Shown in pieces: positions 3,751 to 9,482 of a stretch of DNA of 36,460 bases (position 1 is the first letter of the stretch; each line of letters starts with the position of its first letter). The DNA is taken from assembly GCA_022823305.1 (NCBI GenBank), contig JAJDXK010000046.1, forward strand, positions 1 to 36,460, read 5' to 3'. This stretch comes from Alphaproteobacteria bacterium. Its GTDB lineage: Bacteria > Pseudomonadota > Alphaproteobacteria > UBA828. The notes beneath the pieces are model-generated. The model was not told the origin of the DNA. It ran no database searches and saw only the letters and a program-made list of their open reading frames with translations. Position numbers and translations under genes: made by a program.

Positions 3751-6027
3751 ATGGCGACGACTCATCTGGCTGCCTACTGCGACCGCTTCAGCGCCCGGCC
3801 GGGCGAGCGGCTCGACATCATGGTGAACGCCGAGGGTACCGACGAGGTCACGCTCCAGCTCGTGCGCCTGATCCACGGCGACGAGAACCCGGAGGGGCCG
3901 GGCTTCATCGAGCGCGAGGTCGCGGCCCCGGTGAACGGCGTCTACCCGGTGGCGAGGCAATACACGCAGGTAGGGAGCTTCGTCCGCGTCGCCGACCCCG
4001 ACGGCAGGCTCGCCGCGGGCGGCCCCTTCACCCTCTGGGCCTACATCTGGCCGCGCACGCCCGAGAAGGGCCGCCAGGGCCTGCTCACGCGCTGGCAGGA
4101 GGCCGACGGCGCGGGCTACGCGCTCGGCATCTCGGACGGCGGGGCACTGGAGTTCCGCGTGGGCGACGGCGTCACGGTGGACGCGGTCACCGCCGACATC
4201 CCCCTCGTCGCGCGCCAGTGGTACCTGGTGGCGGCGTCGTACGACCCCGCGCGCGGCGAGGCCACGCTCTACCAGGAGCCTGTCGAGAACCGCTACGGCA
4301 ACCACCTCTCGAAGATCGTGCCGCTCGCGCTCTCCTGCCACGCGAGCGGGCGCCTCGGAGCGACGCCGGCCACGGCGGACGCGGATTTCCTCTGGGCCGC
4401 GGCTCAGGACCGCGCGCCCGGGCGGGGCGCCCATGCCGCGCAGCTCTACAACGGCAAGATCGATCGCGCGGGCGTGGCCGCCGGAGTGCTCGGGCGCGAC
4501 GCGCTCGATGAGGCGCGCGAGGCCGCAGGCGCGCCGGCGGGCGAGGCCATCGCCCGCTGGGACACCACCGCCGGCTACGGCGATGCCGGCATCGGCGACA
4601 CGGTGGTCGACACCGGCCCGCACGGGCTCCACGGCGAGGGCGTGAACCGGCCGGTGCGGGGCATGACCGGCTTCAACTGGAGCGGCCACGACGACTGCTT
4701 CCGCTTCGCGCCTGCGCAGTTCGGCGGCATCGACTTCCACGAGGACGCGATGACCGACTGCGGCTGGGCGCCCACGATCTCCTTCGAGGTGCCAGCGCTG
4801 AAGAGCGGCGTCTATGCCGCCAGGCTCCGGGCGGGCGAGGCGGAGGAGCACGCGGTCTTCTTCCTGCGGCCGGCGCGGCCCTCGGCGCCCATCGCCATGC
4901 TCATGCCCACCTGCAGCTACCTCGCCTACGCCAACGAGCGCATCAGCTTCGGCAGCGGCATCGCCGAGGTGCTGTGCGCCCGGGTGACGGTGATTCACGA
5001 CTGGGACCTGGAGCTGCTGCGGCACCCGGAATACGGCGCCTCCTGCTACGACAGCCACGGCGACGGCGCTGGCGTCTGCTACTCGACGCGGCGCCGGCCC
5101 ATCCTCAACATGCGGCCCCGGCACCGCACGGCGCCCACCGTCGTGCCCTGGCAGTTCCCGGCCGATCTCTCCATCGTCTACTGGCTCGAGAGCATGGGCT
5201 ACGACTACGACGTGATCACCGACGAGGACCTGCACCAGGAAGGGCTCGCCTGCCTCGAGCCCTACAACGTCGTGCTCAACGCGACGCACGCCGAGTACTA
5301 CTCGGAGGCCATGATGAACGCGACCGAGGACTATCTGGCGGGCGGCGGGCGGCTCATGTACCTCTCCGGCAACGGCTATTACTGGGTGGTCTCGTTCCGC
5401 GCGGGCGACATGGACGTGATGGAGGTGCGCCGGCTCGACTACGGCACGCGCGCCTGGAACGCCGCGCCGGGCGAGCACTACATGGCGAGCAACGGCGAGC
5501 GCGGCGGCCTCTGGCGGGGGCGCGGACGGGCGCCGCAGAAGCTGCTCGGCACCGGCTTCACCTCCCAGGCCATGGACGTGTCCGTGCCCTACCGCAAGAT
5601 GCCGGACGCGGAGAACCCCGCGGTCTCGTGGATCTTCGAGGGCGTGGATGGTGACCTCATCGGCGAGGAGGGGCTCGGCATCGGGGGTGCTGCCGGCATC
5701 GAATTCGACCGCTACGACCTGGGCCTCGGCACGCCGCCCAACACACTGGTGCTGGCGTCCTCCGAGGGCCATTCGGACAACTTCCCGCTGGTGGTGGAGG
5801 ACATGCTCTGCAACTACCCCGGCAGAGGCGGGACCCAGGACCACCTGATCCGGGCCGACATGACCTACTTCACCACGTGCGAGGGCGGCGCGGTATGGTC
5901 GGCCTCCTCCATCGCCTGGGGCCAGGCGCTCCCCATCAACGACTGCGACAACAGCGCGTCCAGAGTGACCGCCAACGTCCTCAACGCCTTCATGCAGGAC
6001 GGGCCGCTGCCGGGGGGTGGGGCTTAG
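3751..6027 (+). CDS. dmfA2: N,N-dimethylformamidase large (beta) subunit
   Basis: A 758-residue protein, close to the 760 or so of known DMFase large subunits. Residues about 85-260 form a concanavalin/LamG-like beta-sandwich (FTLWAYIWPRTPEKGRQGLL, later RQWYLVAASYDPARGEATLY). The C-terminal half is the catalytic region. Known DMFase uses a mononuclear iron held by two tyrosines and one glutamate; plausible counterparts here are Y390/Y393 in CSYLAYANE, Y433 in SCYDSHGDG, and E515 in ATHAEYYSE, with H513 nearby. The enzyme hydrolyses N,N-dimethylformamide and related formamides to the amine plus formate; the physiological substrate here could differ. It is translated from an ATG 22 nt after dmfA1. 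Its stop lies 30 nt from the convergent end of the AT-rich Gp37/Gp68 gene, so the insertion boundary falls right behind it. Base composition is like the core genome. Confidence 0.88.
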   Translation: MATTHLAAYCDRFSARPGERLDIMVNAEGTDEVTLQLVRLIHGDENPEGPGFIEREVAAPVNGVYPVARQYTQVGSFVRVADPDGRLAAGGPFTLWAYIWPRTPEKGRQGLLTRWQEADGAGYALGISDGGALEFRVGDGVTVDAVTADIPLVARQWYLVAASYDPARGEATLYQEPVENRYGNHLSKIVPLALSCHASGRLGATPATADADFLWAAAQDRAPGRGAHAAQLYNGKIDRAGVAAGVLGRDALDEAREAAGAPAGEAIARWDTTAGYGDAGIGDTVVDTGPHGLHGEGVNRPVRGMTGFNWSGHDDCFRFAPAQFGGIDFHEDAMTDCGWAPTISFEVPALKSGVYAARLRAGEAEEHAVFFLRPARPSAPIAMLMPTCSYLAYANERISFGSGIAEVLCARVTVIHDWDLELLRHPEYGASCYDSHGDGAGVCYSTRRRPILNMRPRHRTAPTVVPWQFPADLSIVYWLESMGYDYDVITDEDLHQEGLACLEPYNVVLNATHAEYYSEAMMNATEDYLAGGGRLMYLSGNGYYWVVSFRAGDMDVMEVRRLDYGTRAWNAAPGEHYMASNGERGGLWRGRGRAPQKLLGTGFTSQAMDVSVPYRKMPDAENPAVSWIFEGVDGDLIGEEGLGIGGAAGIEFDRYDLGLGTPPNTLVLASSEGHSDNFPLVVEDMLCNYPGRGGTQDHLIRADMTYFTTCEGGAVWSASSIAWGQALPINDCDNSASRVTANVLNAFMQDGPLPGGGA

Positions 6028-6057
6028 GTCACGCGTCGCCCGCCGTTCACTGTGACT

Positions 6058-6774
6058 CTATTGCAACACGCGAGGCATCTGATTCCACACGCGATTGTCC
6101 AGTGTTCGGCCCGTTCTCTTCTTGAAGACTCCGCCCCACTGCTTAAAGAAGAACGGCACGTCGTTTCTCTGACACTGATCGCGGATATCCCGCACCCAGC
6201 CCGCTTCCATCGGTCTCGCGCCCGGCCCGGATTCGCCACCTACGATCACCCAGTCGATCCCCTCGAGCCCCAAATTCGGGAGAGGGCCGAGCAAAGGTTC
6301 CAGAGAGAGAAATTTCACACGGGCATTCGTTTCCTTTAGCTGCTCCAGCCTGCTCAGCCATCGTTCGGATTCAATACTCGTGCCAAACCATATGTTGGGA
6401 GACCAGTACAAACGCTCGTTCATTTGGACAACACGGCTTGGCCGCTTCGTGAGTACCTGAAACACGTGTTGCGGTGCTCGGTTCATTACGTCGAAAACTC
6501 GTTCGATAAATGTGGATGGAACTGACTTGTGGAACAAATCGGACATCGAATTCACAAAAACAAGGCGGGGTTGCTTCCACTTTAGAGGATCGTCGAGAGT
6601 GGATTCGTGAACTGCGACGGAAAAACCTCCTCTGTACTTCTCTACTCCCATCTCTCGCAACCTCTTGGCCATACGCTCCGCATAGCAGTGCTTGCAGCCG
6701 TGGCTGATTTTGGTGCAGCCGGTCACGGGATTCCATGTGACGTCAGTCCACTCGATTCCGGAGAGCGTGGACAT
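6058..6774 (-). CDS. Phage Gp37/Gp68-family three-Cys-motif protein (DUF5131)
   Basis: A 238-residue protein recognised by its N-terminus (SGIEWTDVTWNPVTGC), the three cysteines C20, C27 and C30 (C-x6-C-x2-C followed by YAERMA), the FVNSMSDLFH segment, and the C-terminal FLSLEPLLGPL and DWVIVGGESGPGARPM blocks. These mark the Gp37/Gp68 family of mycobacteriophage and bacterial proteins, regarded as radical-SAM-related from the cysteine motif; the reaction is not established. The ATG at 6772-6774 is preferred to the longer open frame because an AAGGA site sits at the correct distance inside the end of tcmP and similarity starts there. Two bases separate it from the tcmP stop, so the genes are translationally coupled. 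Composition is much more AT-rich than the flanks, with frequent codons such as AAA, TTT and TTG, pointing to horizontal acquisition. Confidence 0.88.
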   Translation of the reverse strand: MSTLSGIEWTDVTWNPVTGCTKISHGCKHCYAERMAKRLREMGVEKYRGGFSVAVHESTLDDPLKWKQPRLVFVNSMSDLFHKSVPSTFIERVFDVMNRAPQHVFQVLTKRPSRVVQMNERLYWSPNIWFGTSIESERWLSRLEQLKETNARVKFLSLEPLLGPLPNLGLEGIDWVIVGGESGPGARPMEAGWVRDIRDQCQRNDVPFFFKQWGGVFKKRTGRTLDNRVWNQMPRVLQ

Positions 6775-6776
6775 GG

Positions 6777-7637
6777 TTACAGATCCTTCATCAGGATGGA
6801 CTTGGCAATGCGTTTGGCGATGGAAGCACCTTGAGGGTTGCCGGCGCAAAACAGAAACTCAAACAACGCTGAATTTTTGGAATTTTTCAGAGGCCGAGAT
6901 TTCTCAAGAAATCTATCGCCGAACAAGTCAGTGAGTTTGCTCTTGTACATCTGAAGTGGCCCATCAACGCCTTGATCTCTCTCATGAGACTCGAAGCCAA
7001 ACAAGTTCAGTTGAGCACTCGGTCTGTACAGACCTCGCCAGCTTTCGTCTCCATATATCGTACTGAGACGCGCAGCCCACTTTTCGTCCACCTCATCGGG
7101 ACGTCGCAATCGGGGAAGTAGTCGAGAGATCGCACCTACAGGAAATAGTATCCATGTATCAAGCGCTTCGAATGCTGCGATCCGTTCCAACGTGGACCAC
7201 TCGACTTGGGTAGCGTAGGGGTCAAGGAATAGAACGCCACGCCTACCACGCCAATCCTCATCCAATGATCTAAGAAATGTGTTAGCGTTTGAATTCTCGA
7301 TTACAATATCCCTATCTTTGTGCGTTGTACGCAACTTGGCCAGTTCGACGCATCGATCAGGGTCTTGTTCGACAAAGACCAGCTTATCAAAGGGTTTGTC
7401 TCCAATATTGATGGCGCGTTCGGCCGAGCCGCTGACAAAGCGTCGAATATCTCTTTGATCGTCGCCGGATAGCTCCATCTGACCGGTGCCCGCAAAAGCA
7501 TCGATGTACCAAAGTCGGAATGGCTGGTCTTTGAGCGCAGTGGTGTACGCGTCCAGGTAGCGTTCTAGTATGGCGAGCTTTTCCTCCGTCCACCGCCCAC
7601 CGAAGGCGGGCGCTGCTCGGGCCGGTTCATCGGTCAT
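6777..7637 (-). CDS. tcmP: Three-Cys-motif partner protein TcmP, methyltransferase-like
   Basis: A 286-residue protein of the family named for its constant pairing with the three-Cys Gp37/Gp68 gene, which follows it here by 2 nt. The N-terminal part reads as a Rossmann methyltransferase fold: glycine motif DAFAGTG at 46-52, an acidic strand end FVEQD at 88-92 suited to binding the SAM ribose, and FLDPYATQVEW at 137-147, which resembles the catalytic DPPY-type motif of nucleic-acid amino-methyltransferases. The C-terminus carries LFGFESHERDQG and a closing FLFCAGNPQGASIAKRIAKS segment typical of the family. Methylation of a nucleic acid is inferred from the motifs, not shown. The start ATG at 7635-7637 has GGTGA upstream; a TTG six codons earlier is possible. 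It is AT-rich compared with both flanks and lies in the same probable transferred segment. Confidence 0.85.
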   Translation of the reverse strand: MTDEPARAAPAFGGRWTEEKLAILERYLDAYTTALKDQPFRLWYIDAFAGTGQMELSGDDQRDIRRFVSGSAERAINIGDKPFDKLVFVEQDPDRCVELAKLRTTHKDRDIVIENSNANTFLRSLDEDWRGRRGVLFLDPYATQVEWSTLERIAAFEALDTWILFPVGAISRLLPRLRRPDEVDEKWAARLSTIYGDESWRGLYRPSAQLNLFGFESHERDQGVDGPLQMYKSKLTDLFGDRFLEKSRPLKNSKNSALFEFLFCAGNPQGASIAKRIAKSILMKDL

Positions 7638-7703
7638 CGTGCAGTCACCATACAAGATTTCGGTCTAGGCGCTGTTGGTGTCCCTACCCAAGCGCCAACA
7701 GAT

Positions 7704-7718
7704 GTTCCCTATTTGTAC
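7704..7718. promoter_or_regulatory. LexA-like (alphaproteobacterial SOS box) candidate upstream of tcmP
   Basis: GTTC, seven AT-rich bases, then GTAC: this matches the alphaproteobacterial SOS operator GTTC-N7-GTTC at seven of eight fixed positions. It sits 67-81 bp before the tcmP ATG, where an operator would be expected. A one-mismatch match in a 140-bp spacer can arise by chance (my estimate is around one in ten), so it is only a lead. Confidence 0.3.
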
Positions 7719-7778
7719 CTATCTGATTGTGCCATGTTGGCCTGCATCCGGCAAGGGGCGTCAGCACCTGATGCCCCC

Positions 7779-9482
7779 TCACCTGCTCCCCCTCCGCCCC
7801 TCGCCGAGGTGGCGCAGCGCCTCGTTCATGAGGATCACCGGGCCGGTGCCGGCGAGGACGATGAGGAGCGCGGGGACCGCCGCCTGCTCCAGCAACTCGT
7901 CCTTGGCGAACTGGTAGAGGTGGGTCGCCAGCGTGTCGAAGCCGAAGGGGCGCAGCAGCAGCGTCATCGGCAGCTCCTTCATCACGTCGACGAAGACCAG
8001 CAGCCCGCCCGCCAGCAGCGAGGTGCCGAGCAGCGGCAGGACGACGCGGACGAGGTTGGCCGGCAGCCCGAGGCCGAGCACGCGGCCTGCCGCCACCGTG
8101 TTCGGCGCGAGCCGGTTCATGCCCGCCGTCAGCGCGCCGTAGCCGATCGCCTGGAAACGCACCATGCAGGCAAAGAGCACGAGGCCGATGCCGCCGGTGA
8201 GGAAGCCGTCGAAGCCGAAGCCCATCACGCCCGAGATCAGCCCGTCCAGCCCGCGGTCCACCGCGCCGGCGAAGGTGACGACGCCGATGGCGAGGATCGT
8301 GCCGGGAAAGGCGTAGCCCGAGGACGCGATGCCGGCCAGCACGGTGAGCGGGCGGCTCGGCCTGTAGGCGAGGGTGATCATCATCAGAACCGCCGCCGCC
8401 ATCACCAGCGCCGCCACCGCGAGCGCCACCCCCACCGAGTTGAGGGTGACGGTGAGCACGTCGCCGTAGTCGGGCAGGCCGGAGCCCTCGACCACGAAGC
8501 TCAGCAGCACGCCGACGGGGACGAAGAACCCCACCGTCACCGGCAGGAGGCAGACCGCGAGGCAGGCGGCGCTGCCCGCGGGCCCGGTGCGCACGCGCGC
8601 GAGGCTCCGCATGCGCCGGCCGGTGTCGACGTAGCGCCGCCTGCGCCGCGACATCAGTTCCAGCACCAGCATCGCGATCACGAAGAGGAAGGCGAGCGAG
8701 GCGATCTGCGCCGCCGCCGGCAGGCTGTTCATGCCGAGCCAGACGTTGAAGATGCCGAGCGTCAGCGTCTCCAGCGCGAAGTAGTCCACCGTGCCGAAGT
8801 CCGAGACCGTCTCCATCAGCACCAGCGCGAGGCCTGCCATGATCGCGGGCCGCGCCAGCGGCAGACCCACGGTGCGGAAGAGGCCGCGGTCGTGCACCCG
8901 CGCGATCTCGAAGAGCGAGAGCGGCGTCAGCTTGAAGGCCGTCCGCGCCATCATGTAGACGTAGGGATAGAGCACCGCGCCCATCACCACGATGGCCCCC
9001 CACATGGAGCGGATCTCGGGGAACCAGTAGTCGCGCCTGCTCTCCCAGCCGAAGGCGTCGCGCAGCGCCCCCTGCACCGGCCCCGCGTAGTCGAGGAAGT
9101 CGGTGTAGACGTAGGCGATGAGGTAGGCCGGCACGGCGAAGGGCAGCACCAGCATCCACTCCAGCACGCGCCGGCCGGGGAAGGCGTAGCGCGTCACCAC
9201 CCAGGCGGTGCTCACCCCCAGCACCAGGCTGAGCCCGCCGACACCCGCCATCAGCGCCAGCGTGTTGGCGACGTAGCGGGGCAGCACCGTGGCGAAGAGG
9301 TGCGCCCACAGACCCTCGCTGTCGCCGGTCGCGGCCGCGATCACCGAGAGGATCGGCGCCGCCATGACCAGCGCCAGCAGGAACGCGACGACCGACCAGC
9401 GGTTCGGTCGCGCGAGAAGGGCCCGGCGCGCCGCGTGAGACCAGTCTATCGCGCGCGTACCGCGCGACGCGGGGCCTACCAC
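7779..9482 (-). CDS. Fe(III)-type ABC transporter permease, fused double domain
   Basis: A 567-residue inner-membrane protein with about twelve hydrophobic segments arranged as two homologous permease domains in one chain, as in the FbpB/SfuB iron(III) importer family. Both halves end with the EAA-type loop that contacts the ATPase: a first near FEIARVHDRGLFRTVGLPLARPAIMAG and a second near NTVAAGRVLGLGLPANLVRVVLPLL. The start is taken as a GTG at 9480-9482, which overlaps the stop of the binding-protein gene by 7 nt, implying coupled translation. No ATP-binding gene follows; after its stop come 141 bp and the unrelated tcmP. So the ATPase must come from elsewhere, or was separated when the AT-rich insert arrived. 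Metal specificity (iron) comes from the partner binding protein. Confidence 0.88.
   Translation of the reverse strand: MVGPASRGTRAIDWSHAARRALLARPNRWSVVAFLLALVMAAPILSVIAAATGDSEGLWAHLFATVLPRYVANTLALMAGVGGLSLVLGVSTAWVVTRYAFPGRRVLEWMLVLPFAVPAYLIAYVYTDFLDYAGPVQGALRDAFGWESRRDYWFPEIRSMWGAIVVMGAVLYPYVYMMARTAFKLTPLSLFEIARVHDRGLFRTVGLPLARPAIMAGLALVLMETVSDFGTVDYFALETLTLGIFNVWLGMNSLPAAAQIASLAFLFVIAMLVLELMSRRRRRYVDTGRRMRSLARVRTGPAGSAACLAVCLLPVTVGFFVPVGVLLSFVVEGSGLPDYGDVLTVTLNSVGVALAVAALVMAAAVLMMITLAYRPSRPLTVLAGIASSGYAFPGTILAIGVVTFAGAVDRGLDGLISGVMGFGFDGFLTGGIGLVLFACMVRFQAIGYGALTAGMNRLAPNTVAAGRVLGLGLPANLVRVVLPLLGTSLLAGGLLVFVDVMKELPMTLLLRPFGFDTLATHLYQFAKDELLEQAAVPALLIVLAGTGPVILMNEALRHLGEGRRGSR

Follow-up and report, generated by a model that had tools for sequence, protein, structure and literature searches.

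We analysed a 36,460-nucleotide stretch of DNA (referred to as the window) from an Alphaproteobacteria bacterium of the UBA828 lineage (NCBI GenBank assembly GCA_022823305.1, contig JAJDXK010000046.1, positions 1 to 36,460 of the forward strand), in which an AT-rich insert carrying the paired genes tcmP and DUF5131 is located between two convergent genes. The pair belongs to a two-gene family without known function that is found in genomes, plasmids and phages. The locus consists of the following features:

3751-6027, plus strand: dmfA2, the left flank gene (PF20254, 306 bits; orthologues in relatives)
6028-7775, no strand: AT-rich insertion (cassette) flanked by the stop codons of two convergent genes, delimited by guanine-plus-cytosine (GC) content and homology breaks
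6058-6774, minus strand: DUF5131 (phage Gp37/Gp68) gene, 238 residues, product resembling radical S-adenosylmethionine (SAM) enzymes (PF07505, PDC-M41B, phrog_2045, alignment, fold search)
6777-7637, minus strand: tcmP, 286 residues, putative RlmJ-like SAM methyltransferase (TIGR04474, PDC-M41A, alignment, hhalign, fold search)
7638-7775, no strand: region from upstream of tcmP to the right edge, by its position the presumed promoter region of the pair
7779-9482, minus strand: ABC transporter permease, the right flank gene (PF00528, BPD_transp_1)

An earlier reading of this DNA without database searches (the sequence-only reading) had pointed to a sharp drop in composition, and the 1,748-base insert indeed had a GC content of 0.531, compared to a minimum of 0.665 among 31,215 equal-length windows outside it; in 500-base windows, GC fell from about 0.71 outside to 0.50–0.53 inside. 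The dmfA2 stop (the gene ends at 6027) is separated by 1,751 bases from the convergent permease stop codon at 7779. Homology to relatives without the pair broke at 6017–6022 on the left and restarted at 7776 on the right, or at 7774 in a pair-bearing relative (G005, see below). The insert lies between the ends of the two flanking genes, as proposed earlier, but its right edge, previously put at 7740, is about 35 bases further. The insert codes for tcmP and DUF5131 alone, 2 bases apart, and the earlier remarks on two coupled genes, on the motifs DAFAGTG and FLDPYATQ and on a three-cysteine motif (Cys-x6-Cys-x2-Cys) all proved accurate. The same goes for the lack of mobility hallmarks, as the two genes do not include an integrase and no repeat of at least 11 bases paired the two edges; on these grounds the insert does not qualify as an integrative element (integron, transposon or integrative plasmid). 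A consensus scan of the insert revealed no sigma-70-like promoter and no terminator. The right flank gene, with orthologues at 89–91% identity in four genomes of the genus, had been called an iron permease; this name is upheld only in part, as the protein matches BPD_transp_1 and scored under cut-off in all 13 NCBIfam families matched.

The site was then compared across eight genomes of the genus, including the window's own draft genome (G000), of which the window is one contig. A dmfA2 orthologue was present in seven of these: G000, five genomes with full-length copies at 81–84% identity, and G007, in which the gene is split across two contigs (80% identity over residues 1–492 and 88% over 532–757). 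The remaining genome, G004 (62% complete), yielded neither a dmfA2 orthologue nor the permease. The TcmP/DUF5131 pair followed the dmfA2 stop in three of the seven (G000, G005 and G007), the G005 and G007 copies being 74% (TcmP) and 84% (DUF5131) identical to those of the window. The other four carried other small cassettes: in G001 a 243-residue protein weakly similar to TIR/deoxyribosyltransferase proteins (PADLOC TIR effector, E 2.7e-7; under the Pfam cut-off), in G002 a DUF5615/PIN and a MerR-DUF433 protein, in G003 an unmatched 163-residue protein and a DUF1828 protein (PADLOC PDC-M24B, E 1.4e-9), and in G006 RelE and a helix-turn-helix (HTH) protein. The clean empty site that had been proposed as a check was thus not found among the seven genomes with a dmfA2 orthologue, all of which hold some cassette, and the gap between dmfA2 and the permease is a chromosomal exchange site.

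The cargo varied in composition as well, with a lowest 300-base GC of 0.46–0.48 in G001, G002, G005 and G007. The G003 cargo had a GC of 0.53 and that of G006 one of 0.64, so that the latter is less foreign in composition. In G001 (L022:6158-6349) and G002 (L023:9444-9665), the frames following dmfA2 start like the intact G006 HTH protein and are apparently what is left of a former RelE/HTH cassette, next to the newer cargo. In G000, G001, G002 and G005 the permease forms the right flank, as it seems to do in G006, judging from 17 bases common to two contig ends. In G003 (L024:8600-9949), however, the right flank is a glutamine-synthetase-type gene (Pfam), and the right-flank open frame of G007 (L027:2457-3923) resembles this gene, Pfam having been run in G003 only. 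With the permease replaced in this way, the site also marks a larger rearrangement. Chromosomal defence hotspots, such as the core ones of Pseudomonas aeruginosa, have fixed flanking genes and exchangeable cargo. The dmfA2 site resembles them in its fixed flanks and swapped cargo, but differs in its one- or two-gene cargo, its lack of an integrase and its scale of seven genomes of one genus. The site provides a natural setting in which to compare interchangeable small cassettes at a single locus.

The pair did not follow the phylogeny of its flanks. In the unrooted flank tree (G002, G005, (G001, ((G000,G006),(G003,G007)))), it occurs in one member of each cherry; the third carrier is G005, and its closest relatives, G002 and G001, hold other cargo. 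The three pair copies are equidistant (74.0–74.7% DNA identity), whereas flank DNA identity was 87.5% between G005 and G007 and 83.4–83.6% between either and G000. GC content at third codon positions (GC3) was 0.52–0.57 for tcmP and 0.65–0.68 for DUF5131, against 0.95 for dmfA2. On these sequence comparisons we favour independent arrivals of the pair at the site. Spread by transfer, as suggested by the sequence-only reading, is supported by the scatter of the pair over three of the seven genomes, the other cargo in four and the AT-rich copies; the opposite outcome, with the same genes in all relatives and gradually matching composition, was looked for and not found.

A rather improbable alternative is that the pair already occupied the site in the genus ancestor and was later replaced in some lineages. 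Nonsynonymous divergence (dN) of DUF5131 (0.098–0.102) was indeed similar to that of dmfA2 in the same genomes (0.079–0.127), a measure that discriminates poorly between arrival scenarios, and the pair gene tree was unresolved (support 0.351). Such an old insert is, however, hard to reconcile with a GC3 far from that of the host in all three copies, with a left-edge frame in G001 and G002 resembling the start of the G006 antitoxin, and with the tcmP genes of G005 and G007, which have the closest flanks and nevertheless differ most (dN 0.203, versus 0.163–0.172 for the other comparisons). Synonymous divergence (dS) was 1.4–2.3 for the pair and 0.36–0.39 for dmfA2, but was not taken to prove independent arrival, as the flank GC3 of 0.95 compresses dS.

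The genus also harbours a second lineage of the pair, distantly related to the first, which occupies AT-rich segments of about 2 kb at two further sites, one common to G005 and G002 (91% identity through insert and flanks) and another in G006. A DUF5131 gene of this lineage was also observed in G007 (C19:5907-6623, L194), with no TcmP detected by tblastn within 2.5 kb, and contig C628 of G004 (L196, L199, L200) holds a DUF5131-like gene in three separate pieces, one with an in-frame stop.

TcmP matched NCBIfam TIGR04474 (three-Cys-motif partner TcmP) with 158.3 bits, the curated cut-off being 53. While this family name gives no activity, the family could here be tied to RlmJ, the 23S rRNA A2030-N6 methyltransferase. 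The TIGR04474 profile also catches RlmJ-like genes, below its cut-off, and of the 15 of these that were read, 12 displayed the RlmJ start signature and the other three variants of it. Alignment of TcmP to the 15 RlmJ-like proteins with hhalign yielded a probability of 97.5% and an E of 5.5e-12 (for one comparison) over 110 columns, in which DAFAGTG was paired with DTHAGAG, TcmP K20 with RlmJ K18, and D139 with D164. According to the RlmJ study (PMC3814359), the K18A and D164A mutations abolish activity, and Y4 and H6 are required too. Both K20 and D139 are among the residues invariant in 31/31 aligned TcmP proteins, together with Y27 and G50, so that motif I, the catalytic lysine and the motif-IV aspartate expected of an RlmJ-like exocyclic-amino methyltransferase can all be recognised in the TcmP sequence.

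The predicted structure pointed in the same direction. In a Foldseek search of the PDB with the TcmP model, RlmJ was the top match (E 3.6e-7; query-normalised template modelling score (TMq) 0.46) and made up nine of the first eleven matches, at 12–14% identity, with the tRNA methyltransferase Trm1 in tenth place. A sequence search of the PDB with single TcmP or single DUF5131 gave no match, and the TcmP profile reached RlmJ at an E of only about 0.5, ranked under other methyltransferases; the RlmJ claim therefore rests on hhalign and the fold. Judged on this evidence, TcmP is a distant RlmJ homologue that keeps two catalytic residues, a lysine and an aspartate, and because of the alignment, the kept residues and the fold it probably methylates an exocyclic amino group, like RlmJ. 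This link, which was not found in the sources searched, provides TcmP with a concrete and testable chemistry: two named residues and one substrate class.

Several observations tell against this assignment. Y4, H6, K18, D164, P165 and Y167 are invariant in the 15 aligned RlmJ-like proteins, but Y4 and H6 fall outside the part that aligns with TcmP, and the D-P-x-Y motif of RlmJ is present in 0/31 TcmP proteins. The window copy reads DPYA, other copies DPFG, DQYG or further variants, and DQ replaces DP in 12/31. In addition, confidence in the TcmP model is middling (predicted local distance difference test score (pLDDT) 72.6, from 6 sequences). Because the motif invariant in RlmJ-like proteins is absent in 31/31, and with Y4 and H6 unaligned, TcmP was rejected as an RlmJ orthologue: what it shares with RlmJ is the fold, the motif I region and the catalytic lysine and aspartate, while it differs in these residues, in being mobile and in being paired with DUF5131.

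DUF5131 matched Pfam PF07505 over its full length (337.8 bits; gathering cut-off 28.9), as well as phrog_2045. Three cysteines (C20, C27 and C30) were invariant in 16/16 aligned proteins with the spacing CX6CX2C. The model (pLDDT 88.0, from 16 sequences) had spore photoproduct lyase (SPL), a radical SAM enzyme, as its leading Foldseek match (probability 1.00, E 1.4e-3, TMq 0.51), which is weak, and lipoyl synthase, a radical SAM enzyme like SPL, was also among the leading matches. This likeness to radical SAM enzymes is tempered by the low TMq and by the cysteine spacing, since canonical radical SAM enzymes, SPL included, have CX3CX2C. No fold match was obtained at E ≤ 0.001, nor any match of the DUF5131 profile to PDB sequences, and membership of radical SAM mobile pair A (TIGR04471) was rejected at 79 bits against a cut-off of 355. 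The earlier suggestion of SAM-dependent action on nucleic acid thus gained support for TcmP, through its distant RlmJ homology and two catalytic residues, and only weakly for DUF5131, through the SPL-like fold.

Given that SPL led the structural matches, DUF5131 might conceivably reverse a lesion as SPL does, with TcmP assisting, so that the pair would serve repair and stress survival. We consider this highly unlikely, as the SPL match is weak and the cysteine spacing different, and as the pair shows a patchy distribution and is exchanged as cargo instead of being conserved. Moreover, a single UvrD-helicase gene, near the Rhizobium rhizogenes copy, was the only repair gene named beside the plasmid copies described below.

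The pairing of the two genes was examined in 398 genomes of the phylum, the window's own included. TcmP exceeded its cut-off in 24 genomes (about 6%; 27 matches), and DUF5131 was located within 1.5 kb of all 27, in tandem with DUF5131 first (14), in tandem with TcmP first (5) or convergently (8). DUF5131 exceeded its cut-off in 40 genomes, 16 of which lacked TcmP. Three of the 27 TcmP matches came from loci that already had one tcmP. Two tcmP genes with one DUF5131 were seen in genomes G275, G303 and G360 and at the plasmid loci L181, L189 and L190, where one tcmP product is shorter and the other about 415 residues long; these loci are perhaps a three-gene variant.

This near-strict pairing could also be that of a toxin-antitoxin-like addiction pair, in which one enzyme would harm the cell (e.g. 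by modifying tRNA or rRNA) and the other would block or reverse the damage. Such a role would explain why the pair sits in a site that in relatives holds RelE/HTH (G006) and DUF5615-PIN/DUF433 (G002) cassettes, the DUF433 protein of the latter presumably being the antitoxin partner, and the RlmJ-like fold of TcmP suggests an RNA target. It is nevertheless an unlikely explanation in view of the 16/40 genomes with DUF5131 but without TcmP, the three arrangements of the genes, the far lower frequency of TcmP than of DUF5131 in phages (2 versus 160 records), and the lack of a match of either protein to a DNA-binding antitoxin family (Pfam, NCBIfam).

Among 72,556 plasmid records, TcmP was found in 10 and DUF5131 in 402. 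Counting three equal-score Sinorhizobium meliloti records once (one was examined), there were eight distinct plasmid TcmP loci, seven of which had DUF5131 nearby. The exception was a Nostoc plasmid (L182:4823-5797), where the divergent neighbour of TcmP encodes a 324-residue protein annotated as radical SAM and carrying the canonical CX3CX2C. It did not match the DUF5131 profile and had no close PDB relative (lowest E 0.45); its relatives occurred in 71/200 genomes, away from the surveyed TcmP loci. This partner swap suggests that the job of the TcmP partner is radical SAM chemistry, although a single case may be chance.

In phages the proportions were different, with DUF5131 in 160/50,697 records and TcmP in 2, so that, unlike the pair in the window, most phage records with PF07505 have no TcmP match. 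Both TcmP records are Synechococcus phages, in which TcmP and DUF5131 are adjacent and convergent. Among the 30 DUF5131 phage matches listed, a few overlap a gene annotated as a (DNA) methyltransferase. In IMG/VR, TcmP lay alongside 4/33 DUF5131 loci, some of which end at contig ends, whereas a pattern scan for TcmP, which detects close relatives only, found none. The presence of the pair in phages raises the rather unlikely alternative of phage-derived anti-restriction genes that modify the nucleic acid of their own carrier, of which the bacterial copy would be a domesticated form. The adjacent copies in phages and the overlap with methyltransferase annotations speak for this, but it sits poorly with the rarity of TcmP in phage records and its absence from the pattern scan, with the insert containing no further gene, and with the bacterial defence genes beside TcmP at 6/8 plasmid loci.

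These plasmid contexts bear on a role in phage defence, for which the pair is already a listed candidate, since PADLOC names it PDC-M41: TcmP matched PDC-M41A (E 2.1e-73) and DUF5131 PDC-M41B (E 7.5e-118), both over nearly their full length and side by side in the insert, although PDC-M30B fits DUF5131 almost equally (E 4.2e-113). The window copy thus shares the leading matches and adjacent genes of PDC-M41, but stands alone in a chromosome. In PMC10855318, PDC systems are described as "guilt-by-embedding" candidates that are experimentally unvalidated. The same paper reports PDC-M30 in 32 P. aeruginosa strains, 68.8% of them phage-resistant, a correlation that concerns only a related candidate. 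This agrees with the earlier statement that the pairing is known and the joint function is not; what is added here is the RlmJ active-site assignment for TcmP, the exchange site and the partner swap in Nostoc.

Known or candidate defence genes flanked six of the eight distinct plasmid TcmP loci. These were the BREX-1 genes pglZ, brxL and brxA (Nostoc); an 845-residue helicase matching PDC-S28, in an unannotated record (S. meliloti); an Hna/PDC-S28-type helicase, a DUF262 gene and a type ISP restriction gene (R. rhizogenes); HamA/HamB Hachiman (Agrobacterium); AbiD and AbiJ-type genes (Leisingera); and a reverse transcriptase matching PADLOC RT-DUF3800_VII-A1 (Rhizobium sp.). The S. meliloti helicase was taken as Hna because PMC12445080 lists SMa2243 TcmP and hna (SMa2245) as one putative unit. 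By annotation, and with DNA methyltransferases not counted, the Acetobacter and Deinococcus loci had no defence genes. The five nearest relatives from the genome collection comprised three near-identical copies beside GmrSD_N, one beside ResIII and AAA, and one by NAD synthase.

Controls were less favourable to a defence role. On the six annotated plasmids, annotation words judged by eye (PADLOC was run on the cases, not on the controls) indicated defence genes at 4/6 case loci and in 2/12 control stretches (Fisher p 0.11), both control positives being reverse transcriptases on the Leisingera plasmid. VapBC/VapC in two Agrobacterium controls, Fic in an Acetobacter stretch and DNA methyltransferases beside two cases were not counted, and two of the six case stretches, at 10.8 and 12.9 kb, fell short of the 16.8 kb of the controls. 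In chromosomes no enrichment was seen, with 28 PADLOC families (25 listed) among 150 neighbour proteins of 20 pairs and 27 (25 listed) among 145 neighbour proteins of 19 control loci. This count of families rather than proteins covered 20 of the 24 pair genomes (the window's own, G087, G160 and G187 being left out), and the controls were RlmJ-like loci taken from sub-cut-off TIGR04474 matches. Neighbour genes were picked by a simple open reading frame (ORF) rule, so that some are spurious. ORFs of more than 900 residues (3 at case loci and 5 at control loci) were omitted, as was one control locus in its entirety (8 proteins). No integrase was present among the 25 most frequent Pfam families of the 159 and 210 found in neighbour proteins. 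The defence-neighbour survey proposed earlier shows defence genes beside most plasmid loci, without a clear excess over controls, and no enrichment in chromosomes. Furthermore, as phages carry the pair and many carry DUF5131 alone, counter-defence fits too, and no phage assay of the pair was found in print, nor any functional study of DUF5131, TcmP or PDC-M41, in a search that covered publications other than subscription papers and preprints. The earlier idea of a role against phage is accordingly backed by the PADLOC listing and plasmid contexts and weakened by the chromosomal result and the phage copies.

Taken together, the insert, the exchanged cargo at its site, the near-strict pairing and the RlmJ homology with two kept residues are observed; the substrate, the radical step and the defence role are inferred. 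In the explanation that we favour, the insert would be a two-enzyme cassette of the TcmP and DUF5131 type (PDC-M41), gained by horizontal transfer and lodged in a chromosomal exchange site where relatives have other small cassettes, two of these being toxin-antitoxin-like. TcmP would be a Rossmann methyltransferase of the RlmJ kind, methylating a base on an exocyclic amino group, with adenine N6 the likeliest position and RNA a likelier substrate than DNA, by means of K20 (as RlmJ K18) and the motif-IV aspartate D139 (as D164). DUF5131 would be a radical-SAM-type enzyme with a Cys-x6-Cys-x2-Cys site, following up with a radical reaction on the same nucleic acid. That the pair in this way modifies the nucleic acid of phage or host in the course of infection, as a mobile, modification-based defence module, we give an even chance. 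A bolder form, possible but doubtful, is that TcmP and DUF5131 constitute a self-sufficient immune module acting purely by chemical modification, with no nuclease or pore. The RlmJ-like enzyme would then mark a base amino group and the SPL-like radical enzyme convert the same nucleotide further, spoiling phage RNA or DNA (or, on infection, that of the host), while the bare cassette of about 1.7 kb would move between exchange sites.

As for the left flank gene, nine DmfA2-like matches were counted in the window's own genome (window positions 3751-6027 and other contigs), three of them with one in-frame stop, and the relatives were alike.

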